Shown one piece after another: positions 50,007-64,000 of a stretch of DNA of 64,000 nucleotides. Source of the DNA: Bathymodiolus brooksi thiotrophic gill symbiont (GTDB lineage Bacteria; Pseudomonadota; Gammaproteobacteria; PS1; Pseudothioglobaceae); NCBI RefSeq assembly GCF_903642095.1, contig NZ_CAHJWD020000194.1, positions 5,952-69,951 of the forward strand, written 5' to 3'. Numbering within the stretch: the first letter of the stretch is position 1; every line of letters begins with the position of its first letter. The position numbers were made by a program, and so were the translations under genes. The notes under the pieces were generated by a model. That model was not told the DNA's origin and did not search any database. It saw only the letters and a program-made list of their open reading frames with translations.

Positions 50007-53000
50007 CTAAAGTATTTGAACGCCTTCTTGAATCCAAAGCTCAACATTAGATGAAGTTGACATTCCTGCAGTATCGCTATGATGATAAATACTATAAGTT
50101 AAATCATTCATGATGGTTGAGGCTTTACCTGAATTATTAAATCCAATAGCATGAATACTATTCGTTTGACCACCTTGAACCATAAGGATATTAGTTTCAC
50201 TGGAAATGCTTAACAAATCATACAGATCGAGTGTTAATCTGTTGCCCAAAGAGGAGGAGGCATCAGAAAAAGAATGATATTGATTACTTTTTAAATCATT
50301 ATCTGCTGAATCTGTAAGGTTAATAACCTCAATGCCTTGGATACGACTATTGTTTATTGCCGTCAAATCTAAACTCAAACCTTTGCCAGTCAAATACAAA
50401 GTATCAAAACCGCCACCGCCATCGATTCTGGCGAGTAAATGGCTACTAAGAGCATTACTACCAAGTTTGTTAAGATTATCTGCATTAATGATAATCTTAT
50501 CATCGCCTTTACCTGCGTAAAAAACATCAGTTCCACCATTGCCTATTAAGGTATTATCATTCACGCCAGTAACAAATAATTCATCATTTGCACTACCTCT
50601 AAATGTATTGCCAGTTCCATTATCTTGAAAATCAATTACATGGGCACTGATTCCATATTGAGCAACATCCGTCAAATCAACAGCTGTGGTATCTTTTTTA
50701 CCAAATATTACATAGGATTTTCCTACATCTTTTCCCACGGTTGTATCTGCCTTATTAGCACCAACAATCAAGTCGTCTAAACCATCACCGTTGACATCAC
50801 CTGCTGAGGAGACTGAAAGACCGCTGTTATCACCAGTATTCTCACCGTTAATAACAAAACCACCTGTGCCAATGCCAGATACTGAGGAAATATCTGATAA
50901 ATTAACAGCAACACCACTCGTTTTGCCAAACACTACGAAAGATTTACCTGCATTAACTTTTCCGTCAGGATCTGCCTTATTAGCACCAATAATTAAATCA
51001 TCCAAGCCATCGCCATTAACATCACCTGCTGAGGAGACTGAAATACCACTCTGATCATTGTGATTTATGCCGTTAATGACAAAACCAGCTGCCACACTCG
51101 TGTTAGATGCTGCACTGATATCTGATAAATTGATAACGGCACCACTTTTTTTACCAAATACCACATAAGCCCTACCTGCCGCACCATTGCGTTCCACATT
51201 GGGAGCACCAATAATCAAATCATCTAAGCCATCGCCATTGACATCGCCTGCCGAAGATACCGAACTACCACTAAAATCATTACTCGCCTCACCATTAATA
51301 ACAAAACCACCATTATTCGATGTTAAGGCAATATCTAATAAATTAACAGCAGTATTGCTCGTTTTGCCAAACACCACATAAGATTTTCCCACATGTTTTC
51401 CTTTAATGGTGTCTGCAGTAGGCGCACCAACAATCAAATCACTCAATCCATCGCCATTAACATCACCTGCTGAAGAGACGGCTAATATAGTCAAGTTACT
51501 AGGTAGGTTACCACCACGCCAATTAACATCACCTGCTGAAGAGGCGGCTAATATAGTTTGACTCAAGTGCATTCGTCCAGTGATATCTTTACCGCCACCA
51601 ATGACAAAACCATCTGCACTGGTTTCGTTGCTAATAGTTGATAAATTAACAGCGGCAATAGTTTCTTTACCAAATACCACGAAAGATTTACCAGCAACCA
51701 TTGTTGACCCATGAGAACTAACAATCAAATCAGCAAAACCGTCGCCATTGACATCACCCGCTGAAGAAACCGAATGCCCACTGAAATCATTAGACTGTTC
51801 GCCATTAATGACAAAGCCACCTCCAATAGATGATGAGGCAATATTTGATAAATTAACAGCAGCACTGTCTTCCTTTCCAAACACCACATAAGATTTACCT
51901 GAATATTCTTTTCTAGCAGACTTTGCAAGCCAAGAGCCAATAATCAAATCATCCAAACCGTCACCATTCACATCGCCTGCTGAGGAAACTGAGTGACCGC
52001 TCCCATCGCCCTTATTTTCGCCATTGATTACAAAACCACCCCTACCCCGACCAGATGCTGTATCAATATTTGATAAATCAATAGGAGTGCCATTCGTCCT
52101 ACCAAACACCACATAAGACTTGCCTTTTAAAGATTTGGACATATCAGAAGGAGCGCCAATAATCAAATCATCCAAGCCATCACCATTCACATCGCCTGCT
52201 GAGGAGACTGAGATGCCACTCTTATCATCAACCTTTACGCCGTTAATAACAAAACCTTTTGCTACAGGAATAGTAATATCAGCAATAGCTGTATGGAGGA
52301 ACTCTGATTCGTTTTCGTGAATTCTTATGGCTAATATATCTTTTAAAGCCACCTTGTCAATACTAAATTCTCCATCTTCACCTGATTTCATTGTATAACT
52401 TAGCATTCTTATATTTGTGTCGTCTGTACCTGACCAAGCAGCTTTTACTGCTACACCATCTATTTTAAAAGTTTGACGATCCTCAAAACCTGTTGTTAAG
52501 CCATGAACCTTGTCACTAAAAGTAATCTTAAGAATAATGGTGTTACCATCCTTGACGAAGACAGTGGCTGACATGTTTAAAGTTGTAAGAAAAGACAAAC
52601 CTTGTTCTACCCATAATTTTGCTGTTGGAGCATCCTTATGAGAATAAACATTATATGTGACATTATCAACAGATTTTATTATGCTTAAAGCGTGAAACCC
52701 GACAGCACCAACGATGCTATCACTCTGCCCTTTAACTTTAATAATATTAGTTTCATTAGAGAGGTTCAAAAAACTATACAAATCAAGTGATAGCATATTA
52801 TACAAACTATCTGCATCTAATCTGTTCAGCCCAGACAAATCAATAGTTTCAATACCTTGAATACGGCCATTGCCTATTGTGGAGAGATCTAAAGTTAGAT
52901 TATTACCAGTCAACACTAAAGTATCGCTCCCGCTACCACCATTAACACTAGCCAGTAAATGACTACTAAGAGTATTGCGACTAAATTTAGCAAGGTTATC

Positions 53001-54752
53001 AGCATTAATGATAATTATGTCATCACCTGCACCTGCATTAAAGACATCGGCACCACCATTGCCCACTAGAATATCATTACCTCTACCCGCAACAAACAAT
53101 TCATCCTTTGTGCTACCCGTGAATGTTTCATTGCTATCATCGCCCTTAAAATCAATTGCATGGGCAATGCCACCAACGCTATTATTAACATCCGTCAAGT
53201 TAACGACCACTGTATTGGTTTTGCCAAATACTACATAAGATTTACCCGCATCTTTCCTTCCGATAGGGTCTGCTCTATTTGCACCAACAATCACATCATC
53301 TAAGCCGTCACCGTTGACATCGCCTGCCGAAGAGACTGAATAACCACTATAATCACTAGACTTCTCGCCGTTAATAACAAAGCCACCCTTGCCCACGCCA
53401 GACGCCGAATCAACATCTGATAAATTAATAGCAGTGCTACTTTTTTTGCCAAATACTACATAAGATTTGCCTGCCCATGCTCTCGCAAAAGGATCTGCTC
53501 CATATGCACCAATAATCAAATCATCTAAGCCGTCACCGTTGACATCGCCTGCTGAGGAGACCGACTGACCACTAAGATCCATAACTTTCGCACCATTGAT
53601 GACAAAGCCACCCGTGTTGGATATTGAGCCAATGTCTGATAAATTAATGGCTGTGGTATTCGTTTTACCAAATACTACATAAGATTTTCCCGCATTAGAT
53701 CCTCCAGTAGAATCCGCATAAAGAGCACCAACAATCAAATCATCTAAGCCGTCACCATTAACATCGCCTGCTGAGGAAACTGAATAACCACTATAATCAC
53801 CCTGTTTATCGCCGTTAATAACAAAGCCACCTATACCTATGCCAGATGTAGAAGCAATGTCTGATAAATTAATAACAGCACTATTTGCTTTACCAAACAC
53901 CACATAAGATTTACCAGCATTAATTTTTCCAGCAACAGACACATACTGACTACCAACAATCAAATCATCTAAACCATCACCATTAACATCGCCTGCTGAA
54001 GAAACTGACCAACCACTAAAATCGTTAGCATTTTCACCGTTTATAACAAAGCCACCCACGCCAACACCAGATACCGGATCAATGGCTGATAAATCAATGG
54101 CAGCACCACTTTTTTTGCCAAACACCACATAAGATTTACCTGCTTTTTCCTTTCCAGCCCATATGGCACCAATAATTAAATCATCCAAACCATCGCCATT
54201 GACATCGCCTGCTGAAGAGACTGACCGACCGCTAAGGTCTTCAGCTTTTGCACCGTTAATAACAAAACCACCCACGCCAACACCAGATACTGAATCAATA
54301 TTCGATAAATTAACAGCAACGCCATCTGCTTTACCAAACACCACAAAAGTTTTGCCCGCAACATGTTTTCCAGCAGGGCTTCCATTAAAAACACCAACAA
54401 TCAAATCATCTAAGCCATCACCATTAACATCGCCTGCTGAGGAGGCTGAATAACTGCTGGAATCGCCAGCCTTATTGCCACTAATGGCAAAACCTCCTTT
54501 ATTAGATGAAAGTGCAATATTTGATAAATCAATAGTAACGCCATTCGTCTTACCAAACACCACGAAAGATTTACTTGTATGTCCTGAGTTAACAGATTTT
54601 AAAGAAGAACCAATAATCAAATCATCCAAACCATCGCCATTCACATCGCCTGCTGAGGAGACTGAATAACCACTACCACCACCAGTCTTTCCACCGTTAA
54701 TCACAAAGCCTTGATTTCCAATTATTGCCTCTCTTTTGAATGTGGTTTTCAT
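50007..54752 (-). CDS. Giant FG-GAP repeat protein with RTX-like calcium-binding segments
   Basis: 1581 residues. Two blocks of seven FG-GAP/integrin-alpha-like repeats (motif cores near residues 47-488 and 862-1327) each carry the calcium loop DVNGDGLDDLIIG followed by SYVVFGK-type strands. Each block is followed by an RTX-like nonapeptide segment (GRGNDILVGNGGADVFNAGA near 555; a second near 1390-1420). Between them, residues ~600-830 hold an Ig-like part. There is no N-terminal signal peptide; with RTX segments this suggests type I secretion, but no secretion genes are adjacent. Probably a surface or secreted adhesin or host-interaction protein. It stands alone with a very strong ribosome-binding site. 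Confidence 0.85.
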   Translation of the reverse strand: MKTTFKREAIIGNQGFVINGGKTGGGSGYSVSSAGDVNGDGLDDLIIGSSLKSVNSGHTSKSFVVFGKTNGVTIDLSNIALSSNKGGFAISGNKAGDSSSYSASSAGDVNGDGLDDLIVGVFNGSPAGKHVAGKTFVVFGKADGVAVNLSNIDSVSGVGVGGFVINGAKAEDLSGRSVSSAGDVNGDGLDDLIIGAIWAGKEKAGKSYVVFGKKSGAAIDLSAIDPVSGVGVGGFVINGENANDFSGWSVSSAGDVNGDGLDDLIVGSQYVSVAGKINAGKSYVVFGKANSAVINLSDIASTSGIGIGGFVINGDKQGDYSGYSVSSAGDVNGDGLDDLIVGALYADSTGGSNAGKSYVVFGKTNTTAINLSDIGSISNTGGFVINGAKVMDLSGQSVSSAGDVNGDGLDDLIIGAYGADPFARAWAGKSYVVFGKKSSTAINLSDVDSASGVGKGGFVINGEKSSDYSGYSVSSAGDVNGDGLDDVIVGANRADPIGRKDAGKSYVVFGKTNTVVVNLTDVNNSVGGIAHAIDFKGDDSNETFTGSTKDELFVAGRGNDILVGNGGADVFNAGAGDDIIIINADNLAKFSRNTLSSHLLASVNGGSGSDTLVLTGNNLTLDLSTIGNGRIQGIETIDLSGLNRLDADSLYNMLSLDLYSFLNLSNETNIIKVKGQSDSIVGAVGFHALSIIKSVDNVTYNVYSHKDAPTAKLWVEQGLSFLTTLNMSATVFVKDGNTIILKITFSDKVHGLTTGFEDRQTFKIDGVAVKAAWSGTDDTNIRMLSYTMKSGEDGEFSIDKVALKDILAIRIHENESEFLHTAIADITIPVAKGFVINGVKVDDKSGISVSSAGDVNGDGLDDLIIGAPSDMSKSLKGKSYVVFGRTNGTPIDLSNIDTASGRGRGGFVINGENKGDGSGHSVSSAGDVNGDGLDDLIIGSWLAKSARKEYSGKSYVVFGKEDSAAVNLSNIASSSIGGGFVINGEQSNDFSGHSVSSAGDVNGDGFADLIVSSHGSTMVAGKSFVVFGKETIAAVNLSTISNETSADGFVIGGGKDITGRMHLSQTILAASSAGDVNWRGGNLPSNLTILAVSSAGDVNGDGLSDLIVGAPTADTIKGKHVGKSYVVFGKTSNTAVNLLDIALTSNNGGFVINGEASNDFSGSSVSSAGDVNGDGLDDLIIGAPNVERNGAAGRAYVVFGKKSGAVINLSDISAASNTSVAAGFVINGINHNDQSGISVSSAGDVNGDGLDDLIIGANKADPDGKVNAGKSFVVFGKTSGVAVNLSDISSVSGIGTGGFVINGENTGDNSGLSVSSAGDVNGDGLDDLIVGANKADTTVGKDVGKSYVIFGKKDTTAVDLTDVAQYGISAHVIDFQDNGTGNTFRGSANDELFVTGVNDNTLIGNGGTDVFYAGKGDDKIIINADNLNKLGSNALSSHLLARIDGGGGFDTLYLTGKGLSLDLTAINNSRIQGIEVINLTDSADNDLKSNQYHSFSDASSSLGNRLTLDLYDLLSISSETNILMVQGGQTNSIHAIGFNNSGKASTIMNDLTYSIYHHSDTAGMSTSSNVELWIQEGVQIL

Positions 54753-54929: not shown

Positions 54930-55060
54930 TTAAAAAGTTGTTAGGGATTTTGAGACAATATAATTACACTATTTCAGAATAGCACATTAGAGTCTCAGTT
55001 ATTACCTGAAATAAAGTTTAAAAGGGGTTGTCTCTAAATATTAAATAGGTTGACAAATTT

Positions 55061-55399
55061 TTAATGATTTTCGCTCACTTGGTTAATGGTGTATTTTGGA
55101 ATTTCAATTACCAAATCAATATTGTTAACAAGTGCTTGACAGGATAGGCGAGAATCTGGGTCTAATCCCCACGCTTTATCAAGTAAATCATCTTCTGTTT
55201 CATCAGATTCTTCAATGTCATCAAAACCTTCACGCACATAAATGTGGCAGGTGGTGCAGGCATTGGACATTTCACAGGCGTGTTCAATGTCAATATCGTT
55301 GGCAAGCATTGCTTTACAAATACTAACACCCTTCTCAGTTTCAATAACAGCACCTTCTGGGCAAAGTTCTTCGTGTGGCAATATAATTATTTGTGGCAT
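55061..55399 (-). CDS. fdx: 2Fe-2S ferredoxin of the Isc system
   Basis: 112 residues of adrenodoxin-type ferredoxin. Cluster Cys are in HACEMSNACTTCHIYV and RLSCQALV. An acidic loop (DDIEESDETEDDLLDKAWGL) is the partner-binding helix. Fdx supplies electrons for cluster assembly on IscU. Last gene of the isc cluster, 28 bp after hscA. iscX does not follow. Confidence 0.94.
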   Translation of the reverse strand: MPQIIILPHEELCPEGAVIETEKGVSICKAMLANDIDIEHACEMSNACTTCHIYVREGFDDIEESDETEDDLLDKAWGLDPDSRLSCQALVNNIDLVIEIPKYTINQVSENH

Positions 55400-55427
55400 T
55401 TTCTTACTCCTGTATTAAAACCAATTT

Positions 55428-57278
55428 TTAATTGGAAAATTCATTAACATTATGACCTTTCATGGCTTGTGCAATACTACTGTTCATACGCATTTCTACA
55501 AACTTAGCACTGACCGCTTCAAGGTTGTCTATTTTATCTTGAATGGCTTTCTCGTTGTTGTCTTTTGCAACGCCAGCTAACTCTAATCTAGCTTGCATAA
55601 TTGCGTCAACCATCGCTTTATCTAGCATTTCTGCATCTTTAGCCAGTGCTGAATCAATCGCTTCTAGTGTTCTGTCTGCTTCCACTTGTGTTTCGTGCAA
55701 CTGCCTAGATTCTATATCATCTTTAGCAAATAAAATAGAGTCTTTCAGCATTTGCTCCATCTCGCTATCACTCAATCCGTAAGAGGGTTTGATTGTCACA
55801 TCGGCTTTAACACCTGAAGTTTCTTCGTTGGCACTAACAGATAGCAAGCCATCAGCATCCACTTGAAATTCCACTCGAATGCGTGCATTGCCTGCAACCA
55901 TGGGCGGAATACCTCTGAGTTCAAATTTTCCAAGTGAACGGCAATCTTTAACCAATTCCCGCTCACCTTGCAGCACATGCACGCTCATTGCTGTTTGCCC
56001 ATCTTTAAAAGTGGTAAATTCTTGTGCTCTAGTAATAGGAATAGTAGTATTTCGATGCACCACCTTCTCTACCAAGCCACCCATGGTCTCCAAACCGAGC
56101 GACAAAGGTAACACATCCAGCAGCAACACATCCTCTTGTGATTTATTACCTGCCAATGAATTGGCTTGAATGGCAGCCCCTTTTGCCACCACTTCATCGG
56201 GATTAATAGTGCATAAAACAGGCTTGCCAAATAAATCGCCAACCATGCTTCTAACCAAAGGCATTCGAGTTGATCCACCCACCATGACAATGTCTTTAAT
56301 TTCACTCATTTCAATTTCAGCATCTCTTACCGCTCGTTTAGTCAATAACAATGTGTGCTTGATTAACACCTTAGACAAAGATTCAAATTTTTCTCTGGTA
56401 ATGCGATACGGTGCTTCCACGCAGTTGAATTCAGCCAACTCATGATCAGTTAAAGTTTCCTTTGCAGTGCGTGCAAACTGCTTAATTTTCTGCATTTGCA
56501 CAGGGGTTAATTCACCCAGTTTTAACATTTCGACACAATCATCAATAATCAATTGGTCAAAATCATCGCCACCTAAAGTAGAATCACCACCCGTTGCCAA
56601 CACTTTAAACACCCCTTTTTGAAAACTCAAAATCGAAACATCAAAAGTGCCACCCCCCAAATCATACACAGCATGAATACCCTCTTCACCTGACTCTAAG
56701 CCATAAGCAACTGCCGCCGCCGTTGGTTCATTTAATAATCTTAAGGTATTTAATCCTGCCAGCGTTGCCGCATCTTTGGTGGCTTGTCGTTGTGCATCGT
56801 TAAAATAAGCAGGCACAGTAATCACAGCACCGACTAAATCGCCACCAAGGGCTTTTTCCGCACGCTGTTTGAGCGAGGTTAAAATAGTTGATGAAATCTC
56901 TACCGCAGACAAATCACCCATAGCGGTATGAAATTGCACATTATTGCCATTTTCCACCAAGTGATATGGACAATTTTTAAAAGCCTTAACTTCTTGATAG
57001 CTCAATCCTATAAAGCGTTTAACCGATATAATTGTGTTAGTTGGGTCGGTTTTTGCATAAGGGCAAGCGTCGCAACCCACTGTGAGTTTATTGTCTTTAC
57101 CACAATGCACAACTGAGGGCAAAATCGCCTTGTTGTTTTCATCTTTCAGCACCTTACTCTCGCCACTTTGCACTGTCGCCACCAAAGAATTAGTGGTACC
57201 CAAATCAATGCCAATCGCTAATTTATGTTGGTGCGGTGCAGTGATTTGACCGGGTTCTGAAATTTGTAGTAATGCCAT
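55428..57278 (-). CDS. hscA: Fe-S cluster assembly chaperone HscA (Hsp70 family)
   Basis: 616 residues. The N-terminal ATPase domain has [49 protein letters not shown] and [10 protein letters not shown]; the C-terminal substrate-binding domain follows from ~residue 390. HscA is the specialised Hsp70 that recognises the LPPVK loop of IscU and releases the cluster. It normally follows hscB directly; here a zeta-like kinase and a small ORF lie between them. The start is an ATG 7 bp after the kinase stop. Confidence 0.96.
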
Positions 57279-57285
57279 TAGTAAA

Positions 57286-57906
57286 TTACTCCATTAACAA
57301 TGTAATTGTCAAGCCGTCATAAACAAACTGCGTCCAATTATTAAGTTCTGTATATTGCTTTAATGTTTGCTTTTTGCCTATATTTTCCACTCTAAAGATA
57401 AGTTTTGGACTGGCGTTATCAATAGAATTATCATAAATGTAACTTCTGTCGACCAAATTAATAATTTTCTGACAGTTCACAACTGATTTTTTATACCTGC
57501 TAATAATTTTTTCTATAGGAACTTGATGTCCGCCTTTTGACACTCGAAAAGCAATTCTACTGGCATTAATAGCAGGGTCTTTGGTTGCAATAAAGAATAG
57601 ACGAATAAAAAAACCGTTTTCTATTGCGTTTTTAACAAATTCAACATTTCCTTGGGTTGAAAAAACCGTTTCAAAAACTAAACTTTGTTTATTCTTTATA
57701 CACTCGTTACGCATTTTTTCTGCATAATTAGCAGCTTTAATAAAAGATTCTTTATCGTTCCATCCGCCAAACTTTTCTTGTGCAATATTATCAGGATTGA
57801 TATGGACAGCGTCTTTTAACCAAGGGTGTGTTAACAATTGTTGGGTAATGGTAGTTTTTCCAGACCCATTCGGCCCTGCAACAATGATTAAAACAGGTTT
57901 TTTCAT
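57286..57906 (-). CDS. Zeta-toxin-like P-loop kinase
   Basis: 206 residues from the ATG at 57906 (an upstream TTG is unlikely). Walker A is [37 protein letters not shown] and [20 protein letters not shown], then ETVFSTQG, match the zeta/PezT fold. Zeta toxins phosphorylate UDP-N-acetylglucosamine and block wall synthesis; others of the family use different small molecules. It is preceded by a 57-residue ORF (57917-58090) with a 10-bp gap, as in a toxin-antitoxin pair. Its presence inside the isc operon is unusual. The substrate is unproven. Confidence 0.75.
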
Positions 57907-57916
57907 CTTTTTCTTG

Positions 57917-58090
57917 TTATGAAAAGATTTGTTCAAATTGTTTTAACTTTGTAATTAATGTTTTTGAAGGTTTTGAATCGTCAAACCATCTTATGTTACT
58001 GTTTTCGCACTGCACATTTGTGCCAATATCTTTAAATAACTTGTCCAACTCAAGCATTGACTTTTCTTTTATATCAAATTTTTGTTTCAT
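57917..58090 (-). CDS. Putative 57-residue antitoxin partner of the zeta-like kinase
   Basis: The frame reads MKQKFDIKEKSMLELDKLFK, then DIGTNVQCENSNIRWFDDSK, and ends PSKTLITKLKQFEQIFS. It is small, charged and helical, without a DNA-binding motif I recognise. Its ATG overlaps the hscB stop (ATGA), and its stop lies 10 bp before the kinase ATG. This order (small antitoxin, then zeta-like kinase) is the usual one. The role is inferred from size and position. Confidence 0.6.
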   Translation of the reverse strand: MKQKFDIKEKSMLELDKLFKDIGTNVQCENSNIRWFDDSKPSKTLITKLKQFEQIFS

Positions 58091-58599
58091 AATAATTCAT
58101 CCATTAACTGATTTGCCTGTGTGTTGAGTTGTATATAAAACTTCAATTCTCTAACCAAGTTCTTAATTTTATCAAGGCTATTTTCCTTAAAAAAGACTTG
58201 TATTTGTTCAATGTTAATCTTAATTTTACCACCGACATCTGCAATAAAATCATCCAACGCCATTTCATTTTCTTCTGCTTTTATCGCCTCTAACGACTCT
58301 CTTAACTCAATTTGACTCATCAAAAAATTCACATTCATTTGCGTGTCTTTCTCATCAAAGGCATCAATACCTTGTAACTCTAATAAATAAGTGGCGCGCA
58401 ATAATGGCGACTTTAGCGTATCAAAAGCACTGTTAATCAACGAGGTATTTTGCACAGCAAGCGTTTTTTCTTTGTCGCTACCTGTGGCAAATTTATCGGG
58501 ATGATGTCGTGCAATTTGCGTTTGATAAATTTGCTCTAAAGCAACTAAATCTATTGAAAAATCAGCCTCTAAAGAGAATAATTCAAAATAATTTTTCAT
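58087..58599 (-). CDS. hscB: Fe-S cluster co-chaperone HscB
   Basis: 170 residues from the ATG at 58599. The N-terminal J domain (KNYFELFSLEADFSIDLVAL) has HPD in IARHHPDKF; the C-terminal three-helix bundle binds IscU. It stimulates HscA ATPase activity during cluster transfer. Its stop overlaps the small antitoxin-like ORF by 4 nt, so that ORF is translated from the hscB message. 17 bp separate it from iscA. Confidence 0.93.
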   Translation of the reverse strand: MKNYFELFSLEADFSIDLVALEQIYQTQIARHHPDKFATGSDKEKTLAVQNTSLINSAFDTLKSPLLRATYLLELQGIDAFDEKDTQMNVNFLMSQIELRESLEAIKAEENEMALDDFIADVGGKIKINIEQIQVFFKENSLDKIKNLVRELKFYIQLNTQANQLMDELL

Positions 58600-58616
58600 A
58601 GTCAAGAAAACTTAAT

Positions 58617-58940
58617 TTACACAGTGAAGGATTCACCACAACCACATTCAGCTTTGGCATTTGGATTGTTAAACTCAAACCCTTCATTAAGTCCTTCTTT
58701 GACAAAATCTACTTCAGTGCCATCTAAATAAACCAGACTTTTGGCATCAATAATAACTTTAACGCCATTGTCTTCAAAAACAGTGTCGTCATCATTTGCA
58801 CTGTCAACAAATTCCATGTTATAACCTAAGCCAGAACAGCCTGTAGTTTGCACAGATAAACGAATACCGATGCCAGTGCCTCGATTGGCTAAAAAACCAA
58901 CAACACGATTAGCGGCAGTATCTGTTAAAGTGATTGCCAT
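58617..58940 (-). CDS. iscA: Iron-sulfur assembly protein IscA
   Basis: 107 residues of the A-type carrier family. The three cluster Cys are Cys35 (TTGCSGLGY), Cys99 and Cys101 (ECGCGESF). It delivers iron or clusters, especially for 4Fe-4S targets such as LipA. Nine bp after iscU, in the canonical order. Confidence 0.95.
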
Positions 58941-58949
58941 AACTAAAAC

Positions 58950-59327
58950 TTACGCTTTACTTCTAATGTCGTCAATGGCTGCTTTAATTGCATCTTCAGC
59001 CAACACTGAACAGTGTATTTTTACAGGAGGCAATGCCAACTCTTCGGCAATATCAACATTTTTAATTTGCGCTGCTTCGTCCAATGTTTTGCCTTTAACC
59101 CATTCTGTTAATAATGAACTTGAAGCAATTGCTGAACCACAACCATAAGTTTTAAATTTTGCCTCTTCAATCACGCCATTATCATCCACTTGAATTTGCA
59201 AACGCATCACATCGCCACAAGCGGGAGCACCCACCATACCTGTGCCAACATTTTTAGCATCCTTGTCCAAAACACCCACATTGCGTGGATTTTCATAATG
59301 ATCCAATACCTTTTCACCGTATGCCAT
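58950..59327 (-). CDS. iscU: Fe-S cluster scaffold IscU
   Basis: 125 residues. Cluster ligands are Cys37 (GAPACGDV), Cys63 (YGCGSAIASS) and Cys106 (KIHCSVLAED). The HscA recognition sequence LPPVK lies at 99-103. Clusters are built on it from IscS sulfur. A 78-bp gap separates it from iscS, and it has AGGAG before its ATG. Confidence 0.97.
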   Translation of the reverse strand: MAYGEKVLDHYENPRNVGVLDKDAKNVGTGMVGAPACGDVMRLQIQVDDNGVIEEAKFKTYGCGSAIASSSLLTEWVKGKTLDEAAQIKNVDIAEELALPPVKIHCSVLAEDAIKAAIDDIRSKA

Positions 59328-59405
59328 CTTCCTATCTCCTTATTAAATACTTACTGTTATTTTAACCTTGTTTGAGCCATTAACCTTGCACCTATTACAC
59401 TTATT

Positions 59406-60620
59406 TTAATGCGCAGCCCACTCAACCTTACTTAAATCAATACCTTCTTTAAACATATCCCACAATGGCGATAAATCACGCAATTTTTCTACTTTTTCAC
59501 GCACCAAAATAATGGCTTTATCAATATCTGCCTCAGTGGTATATCGCCCAATGCTAAAACGAATAGAACTGTGTGCCAATTCATCATTTAGCCCTAATGC
59601 CCGTAACACATAAGACGGCTCAAGACTGGCACTGGTGCAGGCTGACCCTGAAGATACGGCAATTTCGTTAATTGCCATCATCAGTGATTCACCTTCTACA
59701 TAATTAAAACTAATGTTGAGATTACCAGGAATACGATGCACCAAATCACCATTAACTTGCACTTCTTCCATATCCACAAAACCTGCTAATAAGCGGTCTC
59801 GTAGCGCAGTAATTCGTTTATTTTCCTCAGCCATTTCAGCTTGTGCAATGGCAAATGCCTCGCCCATACCTGCGATTTGGTGCGTTGCCAGTGTGCCTGA
59901 ACGCATACCACGCTCATGACCGCCACCATGCATTTGCGCCTCTAAGCGAATGCGTGGCTTACGACGCACGAACAGGGCGCCAATGCCTTTAGGGCCATAG
60001 ATTTTGTGTGCTGAAAAACTCATTAAATCTACAGGTAATTCACTCACATCAATAGCCACCTTGCCAGCAGATTGTGCAGCATCAACATGGAAAAATACTT
60101 TATGCTCACGGCACAATTTGCCAATTGTCTCAATGTCTTGAATCACGCCAATTTCATTGTTCACATGCATAATAGAAACCAATATTGTCTCTTTACGAAT
60201 GGCATCTTTTAATACTTGTAAATCTAACAGACCGTTTGGCATTGGGTCTAAATAGGTTATTTCAAACCCTTCTCTTTCAAGTTGACGACAAGTATCTAGC
60301 ACGGCCTTATGTTCTGTTTTCAGCGTAATAATGTGATTGCCTTTTTTCTTATAAAAATGTGCCACCCCTTTAATTGCCAAATTATCTGACTCAGTTGCAC
60401 CCGAAGTAAACACAATCTCCCTCGGGTCGGCACTAATTAAATCTGCCACTTGCTTTCTGGCTTTTTTAACCGCCTCATCCGCTTGCCAGCCGTAATAATG
60501 TGAATTAGAAGCAGGATTGCCAAAATCGCCATCCATAGTTAAGTATTTCATCATTATTGCAGCAACACGCTCATCAACAGGCGTGGTTGCAGAATAATCC
60601 ATATATGTAGGTGTTGTCAT
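59406..60620 (-). CDS. iscS: Cysteine desulfurase IscS
   Basis: 404 residues. The PLP Lys is in [18 protein letters not shown], and the mobile catalytic Cys loop is [17 protein letters not shown]. The N-terminus [13 protein letters not shown] is typical. It supplies persulfide sulfur to IscU and to tRNA thiolation enzymes such as TtcA at 62688-63416. Three bp after iscR. Confidence 0.98.
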
Positions 60621-60623
60621 TAT

Positions 60624-61049
60624 TTATAATCCTTTGTTAAGATTGATATCGTGATTGTCAATTACCATTTGCAGGGTTTTGCCATTCAAAAATGTTCTAA
60701 TTTGTTGGCTAACCTCACACCATAACTGATGAGAGATACATTGACGACCGTTATTGCATCCACTCATTCCTTTGCAGCGACGGAGGTCTATGTTTTCATC
60801 AACCGCTTCAATGATTTGCGTTAAGCTAATATCCTTTGCCTTGGCATCAAGTAAGTAACCGCCCCCAGGGCCGCGTACACTTTTTACCAATGCCGCCTTT
60901 CTAAGTTTGGCAAATAATTGCTCCAAATAAGACAAAGAAATATTTTGTCTTTGAGAAATAATATCTAGCGTAATGGGCTTACCCGCATTATTAGATGCCA
61001 AATCTAACATTGCTGTTACTGCATAACGACCTTTGGTGGTTAACTGCAT
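60624..61049 (-). CDS. iscR: Fe-S cluster regulator IscR
   Basis: 141 residues of the Rrf2 family. The winged helix (TTKGRYAVTAMLDLA) is followed by cluster ligands Cys92, Cys98, Cys104 and His107 in CKGMSGCNNGRQCISH, identical in spacing to E. coli. With a 2Fe-2S cluster it represses the isc operon. It is the first isc gene, under the promoter at 61077-61104. Confidence 0.95.
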   Translation of the reverse strand: MQLTTKGRYAVTAMLDLASNNAGKPITLDIISQRQNISLSYLEQLFAKLRKAALVKSVRGPGGGYLLDAKAKDISLTQIIEAVDENIDLRRCKGMSGCNNGRQCISHQLWCEVSQQIRTFLNGKTLQMVIDNHDINLNKGL

Positions 61050-61076
61050 AATTTAATATTTCCTTTAAAACTTCAT

Positions 61077-61104
61077 ATTATATATAACCAAGTATTTTAG
61101 TCAA
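61077..61104 (-). promoter_or_regulatory. isc operon promoter with IscR type-1-like site
   Basis: On the minus strand TTGACT (61104-61099), a 16-bp spacer and TATAAT (61082-61077) form a near-consensus sigma-70 promoter. The spacer, with flanks CTTGACTA and TACTTGGTTAT, resembles a type 1 IscR-binding site overlapping -35, as in E. coli. The -35 touches the cysE stop. Confidence 0.65.
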
Positions 61105-61724
61105 GTTTTATTTTCAATTTCATCTAATCGCTTAAGAATAGATTTTATTGCCTCAATATTCGGGTCGTTATCATTACTCACGCCGTATGCATCAAAACTT
61201 AAATGCTCTGATTTATCACTCAACACCCTACCCGGCACACCCACCACAGTTTCATTCGCAAAAACAGGCTTGGTCACCACTGCATTTGAGCCAATTCTAA
61301 CACCATCCTCAAGTGTAATCGGACCCAAAATCTTTGCACCCGCACCAATCACCACATTGTTTTTCAAGGTAGGATGACGCTTACCTTTGTCCAAAGTTGT
61401 GCCACCCAAGGTAACCCCATGATAAAGCGTGCAATCATCGCCAATTTCAGCCGTCTCGCCAATCACCACACCCATGCCATGGTCAATAAAAAATCGTCTA
61501 CCAATTTTCGCCGCAGGATGAATTTCAACACCTGTTAGCCACCTTGCCAACATGGAAACAAACCTAGACAACCATTTAAGGTTCCACCCCCATAATCGAT
61601 GCGACAAGCGATAAAATAACATGGCCTGAACGCCAGAATAAGTGGTTATTATTTCAAAAGTGTTTCTTGCCGATGGGTCACGCTCAAATACACTCTGAAT
61701 ATCTTCAATAAATTTCATCCGCAT
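61101..61724 (-). CDS. cysE: Serine O-acetyltransferase
   Basis: 207 residues. An N-terminal helical part ([20 protein letters not shown]) is followed by the hexapeptide beta-helix [20 protein letters not shown], with the catalytic His in [20 protein letters not shown], and then [20 protein letters not shown]. This is the short EpsC-type CysE. It makes O-acetylserine for cysteine synthesis, feeding sulfur to IscS. The ATG at 61718 is an alternative start. Ten bp upstream lies the minimal CRISPR-like pair, whose last bases (AGAAAG) may serve as ribosome-binding site. Confidence 0.93.
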
Positions 61725-61733
61725 ATTTTAATC

Positions 61734-61821
61734 TTTCTAAGCCACCTATGTGGTGGTAAATATTTCTGACGGCAATTCAACCCAAAGTAGTTGCTTTTAA
61801 GCCACCTATGTGGTGGTAAAT
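61734..61821 (-). CRISPR. Minimal orphan CRISPR: two type I-F-like repeats, one spacer
   Basis: Two 28-nt repeats (61734-61761 and 61794-61821, 26/28 identical) flank one 32-nt spacer (61762-61793); the 60-bp period is that of type I-F arrays. On the minus strand the repeat starts ATTTACCACCACATAGG and ends TGGCTTAGAAA. From memory of the I-F consensus (GTTCACTGCC to GCTTAGAAA) about 20 of 28 positions agree, and the differences in the stem are paired: CTGCC/GGCAG becomes CCACC/GGTGG. No cas genes are in the window. A pair of regulatory hairpins is the alternative explanation. Confidence 0.7.
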
Positions 61822-61855
61822 TTTAGTATAACGCTGAGTATGCTGAAATAACAGT

Positions 61856-62695
61856 CTAATATTTCGTAACACCCTTAAAGCGCTTATAATTCCACAAATA
61901 TTGTTCAGGTTTGGTCTTTACCAAGTTTTCAATCACCTGATTCATTTTTGCCACATCTTCCGCCAATACACCCGATTTTGACAAAACATCTACAGGCTCA
62001 ATATTCAATTCATACCCCCTGCCCTTGTCTAATCGTGTCGCCCAAGTCAACAACACTTTAGCATTATTTTTTCTAGCCAACTTAACCAACAGCGTCATTG
62101 TTCTAATATTCTGCCCAAAAAAAGGTGCCAAAACACCCTTCTCTTCTCCCGGATACTGGTCAGGCAAAATAATAACCAATTGGTCATTCTTTAAAGCGCG
62201 TTGCAATTTTAAAACGCCTTTATTATTCGCTGTTACCATAAACAAATTTTGTTGTTCACGCACAGAAAGTAACAGAGCATTTTGCTTTTTATTGCTCAAT
62301 TCTTTATACATACAAGTAGTCGTTCTATAAAGTGACGCCACACGCAACACAACCTCCCAACAGCCAAAATGTGGTGCTAATAAAATAATACTTTGCTCAG
62401 TTTTAAAATGCTGCTCACCCTTTATTTTAACCACATGTCTTGCGCTATGCTCAAAACTGTTAAACCAAATAAAACCAGACTCACTCAAGCTCTTACCCGT
62501 TTCAATTAAAGATTTTTTAATCAAATCTTGTTGTTGCCTTTCGTCTAAATCTGGAAAACAAATATCAATATTTTTACTAACCACAGACTTAGAGCGGTTA
62601 TTCGTCAAATACAACAATCGACCCATTCCCTTACCGATAAAATGGTTAAGCCTAAGTGGCATCAAGGCAAAAAACTTAAAAACAAATTTAATCAT
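61856..62695 (-). CDS. Lipid A late acyltransferase, LpxL/LpxM family
   Basis: 279 residues. The HX4E catalytic motif is APHFGCWE (His109, Glu114). An N-terminal membrane-associated helix (KFVFKFFALMPLRLNHFIGK), QYPGEEKGVLAPFFG and the ending EQYLWNYKRFKG are typical of the HtrB/MsbB family. It probably adds a secondary acyl chain to lipid A, downstream of LpxA/LpxD made from 31-34 kb. Which position it acylates is unclear. Its start overlaps the ttcA stop by 8 nt. Confidence 0.88.
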   Translation of the reverse strand: MIKFVFKFFALMPLRLNHFIGKGMGRLLYLTNNRSKSVVSKNIDICFPDLDERQQQDLIKKSLIETGKSLSESGFIWFNSFEHSARHVVKIKGEQHFKTEQSIILLAPHFGCWEVVLRVASLYRTTTCMYKELSNKKQNALLLSVREQQNLFMVTANNKGVLKLQRALKNDQLVIILPDQYPGEEKGVLAPFFGQNIRTMTLLVKLARKNNAKVLLTWATRLDKGRGYELNIEPVDVLSKSGVLAEDVAKMNQVIENLVKTKPEQYLWNYKRFKGVTKY

Positions 62696-63442: not shown

Positions 63443-64000
63443 TTACTTATCTTGCCTTAAAACATGCGTATAAATCATCGTAGTTTGCAAATCACCATGC
63501 CCAAGCAAGCCCTGAATAGTGCGAATATCTGCCCATTTGCAATAGATGCGTGACAAATGAATATCGAAAAGCATGTGCCGAGACTTTTTTATGGATGTTT
63601 CTACACTTCTCAACAGCCACTTTAGTCGCCTTATTCACTGCTGACTGGTCAACACGATAGCGGTGTTCAACATTCGTGCGTGGGTCAATGGCCATATTCC
63701 TGCCAGCAAACACATACTGCCAACCAAACTTTTTATCTATATTCAGGTATTTTTTAACCAAAGCATTAAACGCTTGATTTTGAGTGCCGACAGCAACATT
63801 TTGTTTTACTGCTAAATCCGTTAAAAAACCCTCAACTTTATTTTCAGAATCTTCAAATAACTCTTGCTTATCTTGCATTTTAGAAAATTTAATAAAACGC
63901 TTTACCCAATCGCAACAACCATTTTCAGTTTTATAAGCATAACGCATTCGTTGCATTTTTTCACACATTTTCTGAATGATTGATTTTTTATCTGTTATCA
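63443..64000 (-). pseudogene. Integron-type tyrosine recombinase (IntI-like), broken
   Basis: The N-terminal part (RYAYKTENGCCDWVKRFIKF, VEGFLTDLAVKQNVAVGTQN then QAFNAL) matches integron integrases; the frame runs off the window edge. After KKYLNIDKKF the sequence jumps to GWQYVFAGRN, skipping roughly 170 residues including the first catalytic Arg. The later [15 protein letters not shown] is followed by a one-base loss; the shifted frame continues [20 protein letters not shown] then YTHVLRQDK to a stop at 63443, including the nucleophile Tyr. One internal deletion and one frameshift leave it inactive. Confidence 0.85.

Follow-up and report, generated by a model that had tools for sequence, protein, structure and literature searches.

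Most studies of toxin-antitoxin pairs deal with pairs that have a promoter of their own or are on plasmids. Here we describe a putative pair, apparently promoterless, at one fixed junction of a housekeeping operon, where intact, altered and ruined copies are found side by side in related genomes. It was seen in a window of 64,000 nt (the whole stretch analysed) from the Bathymodiolus brooksi thiotrophic gill symbiont, contig NZ_CAHJWD020000194.1, in which a 57-aa open reading frame (ORF) and a zeta/PezT-like P-loop kinase of 206 aa lie between hscB and hscA of the isc operon for iron-sulphur (Fe-S) assembly.

Several described systems resemble this locus. PezAT-Mtb (Rv0366c-Rv0367c) is a non-canonical PezAT-like pair, whose kinase was described in the relevant sections of PMC6362051 as bacteriostatic and rescued by its partner. 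Like the pair in the window, it has a kinase with a P-loop and without GTXR, and its partner gene is upstream. According to the same sections, its kinase has 197 aa with Asp 36 and Arg 116, comparable with D39 and R117 of the window kinase. However, its partner is a 129-aa ribbon-helix-helix (RHH)/ParD-like protein rather than a 57-aa ORF, and the neighbours named in those sections are not isc genes; the likeness is to that published description. Similarly, epsilon/zeta and PezAT (1gvn, 3q8x, 2p5t) share the zeta/PezT fold, the P-loop, the Asp and the Arg with the window kinase, although their solved chains have 240-272 aa, the window kinase is shorter and has no GTXR, and the small ORF has no sequence match to any epsilon family. 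The Neisseria pair ng-epsilon1/ng-zeta1, in the parts of PMC5923241 that concern it, serves as a precedent on two counts: its antitoxin is wrapped around the zeta kinase in an extended form, and the reaction on sugar nucleotides is non-canonical. It differs in that ng-zeta1 has 401 aa in the account of PMC6362051. AvrRxo1-Arc1 (4z8u; PMC4938570 in the part concerned) differs in context and size, AvrRxo1 being a type III effector that phosphorylates NAD, as PMC6362051 summarizes it. Plasmids of Pseudomonas KHPS1, Yersinia massiliensis, Piscirickettsia and Zymomonas carry homologous kinases with a small ORF of 73-82 aa upstream, which overlaps the kinase start; the pairs are annotated as 'hypothetical protein + AAA family ATPase / zeta toxin family protein'. 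These kinases are 33-40% identical to the window kinase; unlike it, they reside on plasmids and have other kinds of small ORF. A literature search, with subscription journals mostly outside its scope, found no paper joining a zeta toxin with hscB and hscA, or with Bathymodiolus, and among the titles listed none concerned this locus. The toxin-antitoxin passages of the vent-symbiont genome papers PMC7580541 and PMC5581435 do not mention the locus. As a toxin-antitoxin pair it would be distinctive by its place and its mode of movement, not by its chemistry. Its copies at the junction make a testable series for the entry, movement and decay of toxin-antitoxin pairs, and it may connect a growth-control kinase with Fe-S regulation in symbionts.

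We consider it probable that both ORFs together form a toxin-antitoxin pair of zeta/PezT type, promoterless, which is a guest of the isc operon and has moved between species. The kinase matched the Pfam family Zeta_toxin (PF06414) with 51.3 bits (cut-off 22.3; E = 1.3e-13), and its structure model (pLDDT 91) had PezT, zeta and AvrRxo1 among the top fold matches. It is thus a member of the zeta/PezT-like group by both profile and fold, with the P-loop, the catalytic Asp and the catalytic/antitoxin-binding Arg. Its motifs comprise the P-loop GPNGSGKT, D39, E79-T80, R117, R121, GGH and R137; G11, G16, K17 and T18 of the P-loop, D39 and R117 were invariant in the kinase alignment (A1). The equivalence to zeta residues comes from a comparison of positions with the residues listed in part of PMC6362051. 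The GTXR substrate motif of canonical UDP-N-acetylglucosamine (UNAG)-3' kinase toxins, as that part defines it, was not found in the window kinase, which has F78-E79-T80-V81-F82-S83 where FET(V/L)xS is kept across 11 aligned rows. The layout is that of type II toxin-antitoxin systems, i.e. a bicistron with the small gene first and overlapping or close spacing, and relatives have the same layout. The first-pass annotation had placed the start of the small ORF in the hscB stop codon and given the two spacings around the kinase, and all of these were exact to the base (Table 1). Its interpretation was supported in part: the proposal of a zeta-like kinase with a small upstream partner gene likewise held.

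Genomes of the same family were compared at this junction; many of the genomes used in this work are drafts. Among 83 searched, hscB was matched in 71 and hscA in 70 at E <= 1e-150, and the junction sequence was read in 60. The junction was empty in 46, with 3-36 bp between hscB and hscA, and held the module or its remains in 14, the source genome included (11 by search matches and three by eye). Nine further genomes, all of genus g3 and known by coordinates only, had match ends 14-17 bp apart, counting the stop codon, and a usable hscB/hscA pair was lacking in G063 and G073. Beyond what the first-pass annotation noticed, the module spans three genera, or four counting a stub recognised by eye, and appears to have moved between species into this one site. 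Only four of the 14 copies kept all kinase motifs (G000, G002, G005 and G022). Two others had long open kinases with motif deletions: G011 lost the second lid arginine and G094 the FET motif. The remaining eight were decayed. Large kinase deletions with the frame still open were seen in G003, G085 and G007; the module was frayed in G088, and an open small ORF was all that remained in G004. Translation of junctions of 150-380 bp, judged by eye, added three more: G001 and G009, both frayed, and G021, where only a 5' stub of the small ORF was left. An assembly accident was rejected because single-contig genomes carry the module (G002 and G011, with open kinases) or a relic (G085 and G088).

Given these counts, the module is easily lost, and Fe-S assembly does not need it. 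The first-pass annotation had also suggested that a toxin-antitoxin pair in an essential operon might be addictive; this found no support, because most relatives lack the pair or have only its ruins. Decay that struck the kinase first occurred in at least five cases and the reverse in none, which fits a toxin-antitoxin pair, although gene length alone is a sufficient explanation. An open small ORF stood beside all six near-whole-length kinase frames, and the reverse was found in 0 of 14, a pattern that is not significant given the gene lengths. The open kinase frames of the relics in G003, G085 and G007 hint at in-frame decay that keeps translation into hscA, although they are too few.

The history of the module was traced with trees. 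On the hscB+hscA tree of the 60 genomes, its presence and absence required seven changes. In the kinase tree, eight junction rows (six long and two deleted) formed one clade against ten kinases from elsewhere (support 97/99), and this is most simply read as a single entry into the site. Approximately unbiased (AU) tests rejected host-like groupings of the five g1 copies (P = 0.0006), the two g2 copies (P = 0.005) and G000+G011 (P = 0.017). Between G003 (g1) and G022 (g2), the clearest case, the module was 82.6% identical, compared with 67.8% for hscB and 74.3% for hscA. The last 60 bp of hscB were at background in this pair (0.70; rank 83 among 121 g1-g2 pairs), whereas the first 60 bp of hscA were the most similar of all 121 (0.883; mean 0.80). 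By this profile, the exchanged piece starts at the stop codon of hscB and has its other end in the beginning of hscA or beyond it, which would fit either recombination between conserved gene ends or a site-directed process. Considering the single clade, the conflict with the host tree and the module identity of G003 and G022, the pair probably entered isc once and was later passed from species to species, each time into this junction, often decaying. In the mechanism that we propose, the entry would have taken place in the SUP05 group of Gammaproteobacteria, and the later moves would most simply have come from recombination between short conserved gene ends, which we favour over a site-directed process.

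No terminator-like site was found inside the module, and it had five promoter-like sites compared with 5.5 expected from shuffled sequence. Rfam gave nothing at gathering score in window positions 55000-62000. An IscR type-1-like site stands at the start of the operon and was the top match to the IscR type-1 consensus in the 64-kb window on both strands. Because of these three features, co-expression of the module under IscR is likely, judging from sequence. The same-strand layout, the lack of a terminator-like site and the IscR-like site agree with the earlier claim of expression shared with Fe-S assembly. The pair, with no obvious promoter or terminator, would ride the isc operon; the 57-aa protein would be made first through translational coupling to hscB and would restrain the kinase. 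Once free, the kinase would phosphorylate some metabolite, though probably not by the canonical reaction on UDP-N-acetylglucosamine, and growth would stop. We can extend this and regard the junction as a docking site reserved for one promoterless toxin-antitoxin allele, which would circulate among mussel and clam symbionts of the SUP05 group and their free-living kin. The allele would borrow IscR control, so that Fe-S stress alters the output of antitoxin and kinase, and the module alone would be exchanged between conserved gene ends. Such an extension is tentative, and we think it rather unlikely in full.

The small ORF matched nothing in Pfam, NCBIfam or PADLOC, and only one PHROG family of unknown function (E = 0.03). 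It had homologues with 83% identity over 52 aa (G007) and 42% over 55 aa (G002), and a chance ORF was ruled out by these homologues together with purifying selection. A profile search with the small ORF gave ten clear copies in family genomes (E <= 5e-16), every one at the hscB-hscA junction; the next match, G094 (E = 0.004), was also there, and further weak matches (E 0.005-0.08) were elsewhere. The ten copies share one N-terminus and have a very variable C-terminal part. The small ORF of G094 (L108 / L018:2652-3140) is enlarged to 162 aa and, by eye, contains internal repeats. Pairwise ratios of nonsynonymous to synonymous substitutions (dN/dS), taken with relics included where dS was estimable, ranged from 0.09 to 0.35 in the kinase and from 0.09 to 0.61 in the small ORF; they are only rough, because most pairs approach saturation at synonymous sites and relics are among the rows. 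For G003-G022, the closest cross-genus pair, they were 0.11 and 0.16. Both ORFs thus look to be under purifying selection.

Partner genes were also found beside related kinases. Eight of the ten nearest non-isc kinases were preceded by an ORF of the 'EPTDEEL' type, about 60-80 aa long (more in L138 with the earliest possible start), which overlaps the kinase start or stops within about 15 bp of it. In L020 an ORF of this type was about 180 bp upstream of the kinase, by eye. Distant relatives had other partners: a ParD-like ORF of about 130 aa in L142 (PF11903, E = 3.3e-6), a 'GRPIYY'-type ORF of about 80 aa in L135, L137, L141 and L153, and further small-ORF types elsewhere. At several distant kinase loci the scripted scan for partner ORFs gave none, or a long or doubtful frame. 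The hhalign comparison of the window small ORF with the EPTDEEL type, over about 29 columns, gave a score of 17.3 (P = 0.006; probability 6%). None of 200 column shuffles reached this score (7.6 +/- 1.8), either profile reversed gave about 7.2, and the GRPIYY type gave 10.0. A relationship to the EPTDEEL type is thus suggested, not proved. A Fibrobacteraceae metagenome-assembled genome (L022:3701-4450) has a kinase relative that matches from residue 42, its start lost or out of frame, preceded by a small ORF of the EPTDEEL type (by eye); two further contigs, L023 and L024, have the same match.

Alternatively, the module might be a non-toxic passenger, with a metabolic or salvage kinase and a small ORF that acts as a leader coupling hscB translation to the kinase. 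The equally close polynucleotide-kinase fold and the variable C-terminal part of the small ORF would fit, whereas the signs of selection on both ORFs do not, nor does the fact that related kinases are preceded by several unrelated kinds of small ORF, one of them ParD-like. In addition, Rv0366c-Rv0367c, with a ParD-like partner, was reported to show growth stop and partner rescue (relevant sections of PMC6362051). We therefore regard the passenger as unlikely. Several results nevertheless weigh against our reading of a mobile toxin-antitoxin pair. The zeta-like fold is common to harmless kinases, and polynucleotide kinase scores equally as a fold match. The small ORF has no Pfam, NCBIfam or PADLOC match, and the hhalign probability to the EPTDEEL family is only 6% (P = 0.006, or 0.025 when fewer rows are used). 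Synonymous sites are close to saturation. Toxin-first decay is not significant, as kinase length alone gives about 0.78 per event. The AU groups were partly picked once identities were known, and hscA positions 61-600 of G003 and G022 are also fairly similar (0.778; mean 0.72; rank 5 among the 121 pairs), which leaves the exchanged piece without a sharp right edge.

Outside the family, an even sample of the class yielded 109 genomes with hscB. Three family rows and five without a strong hscA match were dropped before typing, which left 101; in three of these, hscB and hscA were not on one contig and strand. In the other 98 junctions, with gaps estimated from match ends, the median gap was about 33 bp; 19 exceeded 100 bp and three exceeded 400 bp. 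The three widest (G332, G312 and G203) had no kinase, the ORFs of G312 and G203 being judged by eye. The earlier statement that hscB and hscA are normally adjacent was thus borne out in most of these 98, as in the empty family junctions and the nine known by coordinates. G332 (L170:732-1418), of another gammaproteobacterial family, has an unrelated DUF2625 gene (E = 4e-88) between hscB and hscA, and therefore the junction can accept other guests. Together with the seven changes on the state tree, this would suit an insertion hot spot with independent uptake of different copies instead of one entry and transfer. However, the eight tested junction kinases form a single clade, and the N-terminus common to the ten clear small ORFs is found in the family only at this junction, which makes a hot spot quite improbable.

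The kinase family itself is common: at a threshold of E <= 1e-12 it was matched in 48 of the 369 genomes of the class. There were 49 out-of-family kinase places in 45 genomes, and none of the 28 tested had an isc gene within 1.5 kb or to the contig end. In G135 (L139:1486-2254) a near non-isc kinase and an EPTDEEL small ORF stand between hldD-like and heptosyltransferase-like genes (by eye), on one strand with their neighbours and with a 4-bp overlap with the downstream gene. Judging from this pair, the kinase subfamily may have a habit of residing in host operons. L009:1501-2222, L013:1501-2230 and L010:1239-1965 carry another zeta-like kinase, a distant one (about 30% identical), which is followed by an ORF of 54-57 aa. 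In G024 and G027 it begins 3 bp after a purU-like gene (by eye), and is thus another operon guest in the same family. G007 has broken zeta-like kinase pieces with internal stops elsewhere in the genome (L015 and L016, G007:C14).

The first-pass annotation had also raised domestication as a stress sensor; such a kinase would modify an Fe-S assembly factor or sense Fe-S or oxidative stress, hence its place in isc. Tight co-directional spacing inside isc, the IscR-like site upstream and purifying selection on the kinase are in keeping with this. It seems very unlikely, considering the many empty or decayed junctions, relatives on plasmids and nearer ones in unrelated operons, and movement of copies between species. 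A phage-defence (abortive infection) module that exploits isc for constant expression is just as improbable: it would agree with horizontal movement and frequent loss, as in defence genes, and with a relative (L019) between large ATPase-like and PAPS-reductase-like genes (by eye), whereas PADLOC gave only weak, generic ATPase matches and no defence gene was recognised by eye in the isc operon.

Table 1. Features of the isc operon and the inserted pair in the window
Feature	Position	Strand	Remarks
IscR type-1-like site	61084-61108	minus	directly upstream of iscR; 21/25 to consensus
iscR	61049-60624	minus	translation
iscS	60620-59406	minus	translation
iscU	59327-58950	minus	translation
iscA	58940-58617	minus	Pfam PF01521
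hscB	58605-58087	minus	NCBIfam TIGR00714 cut-off reached; likelier ATG at 58599
57-aa small ORF, putative antitoxin	58090-57917	minus	ATG overlaps hscB TGA (ATGA)
Spacer between small ORF and kinase	57916-57907		10 bp
Zeta/PezT-like P-loop kinase, 206 aa, putative toxin	ATG 57906 to stop 57286	minus	Pfam Zeta_toxin
hscA	57278-55428	minus	NCBIfam TIGR01991 cut-off reached; 7 bp after kinase stop
fdx, ferredoxin of isc operon	55399-55061	minus	translation; name by eye

The order on the minus strand is iscR-iscS-iscU-iscA-hscB-small ORF-kinase-hscA-fdx. The names iscU and iscS come from the sequence and gene order, and iscR has the Cys/His ligand pattern of IscR. An fdx homologue is also 3' of hscA in L017, L018 and L025. 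Adjoining the isc operon, a 1581-aa protein of repeated 'SVSSAGDVNGDGLDDLI' units (FG-GAP-like by eye) is encoded on the minus strand at 50007-54752. At 63443-63968, also on the minus strand, there are integrase pieces in two frames (Phage_int_SAM_4 and Phage_integrase), which are apparently one frameshifted gene.
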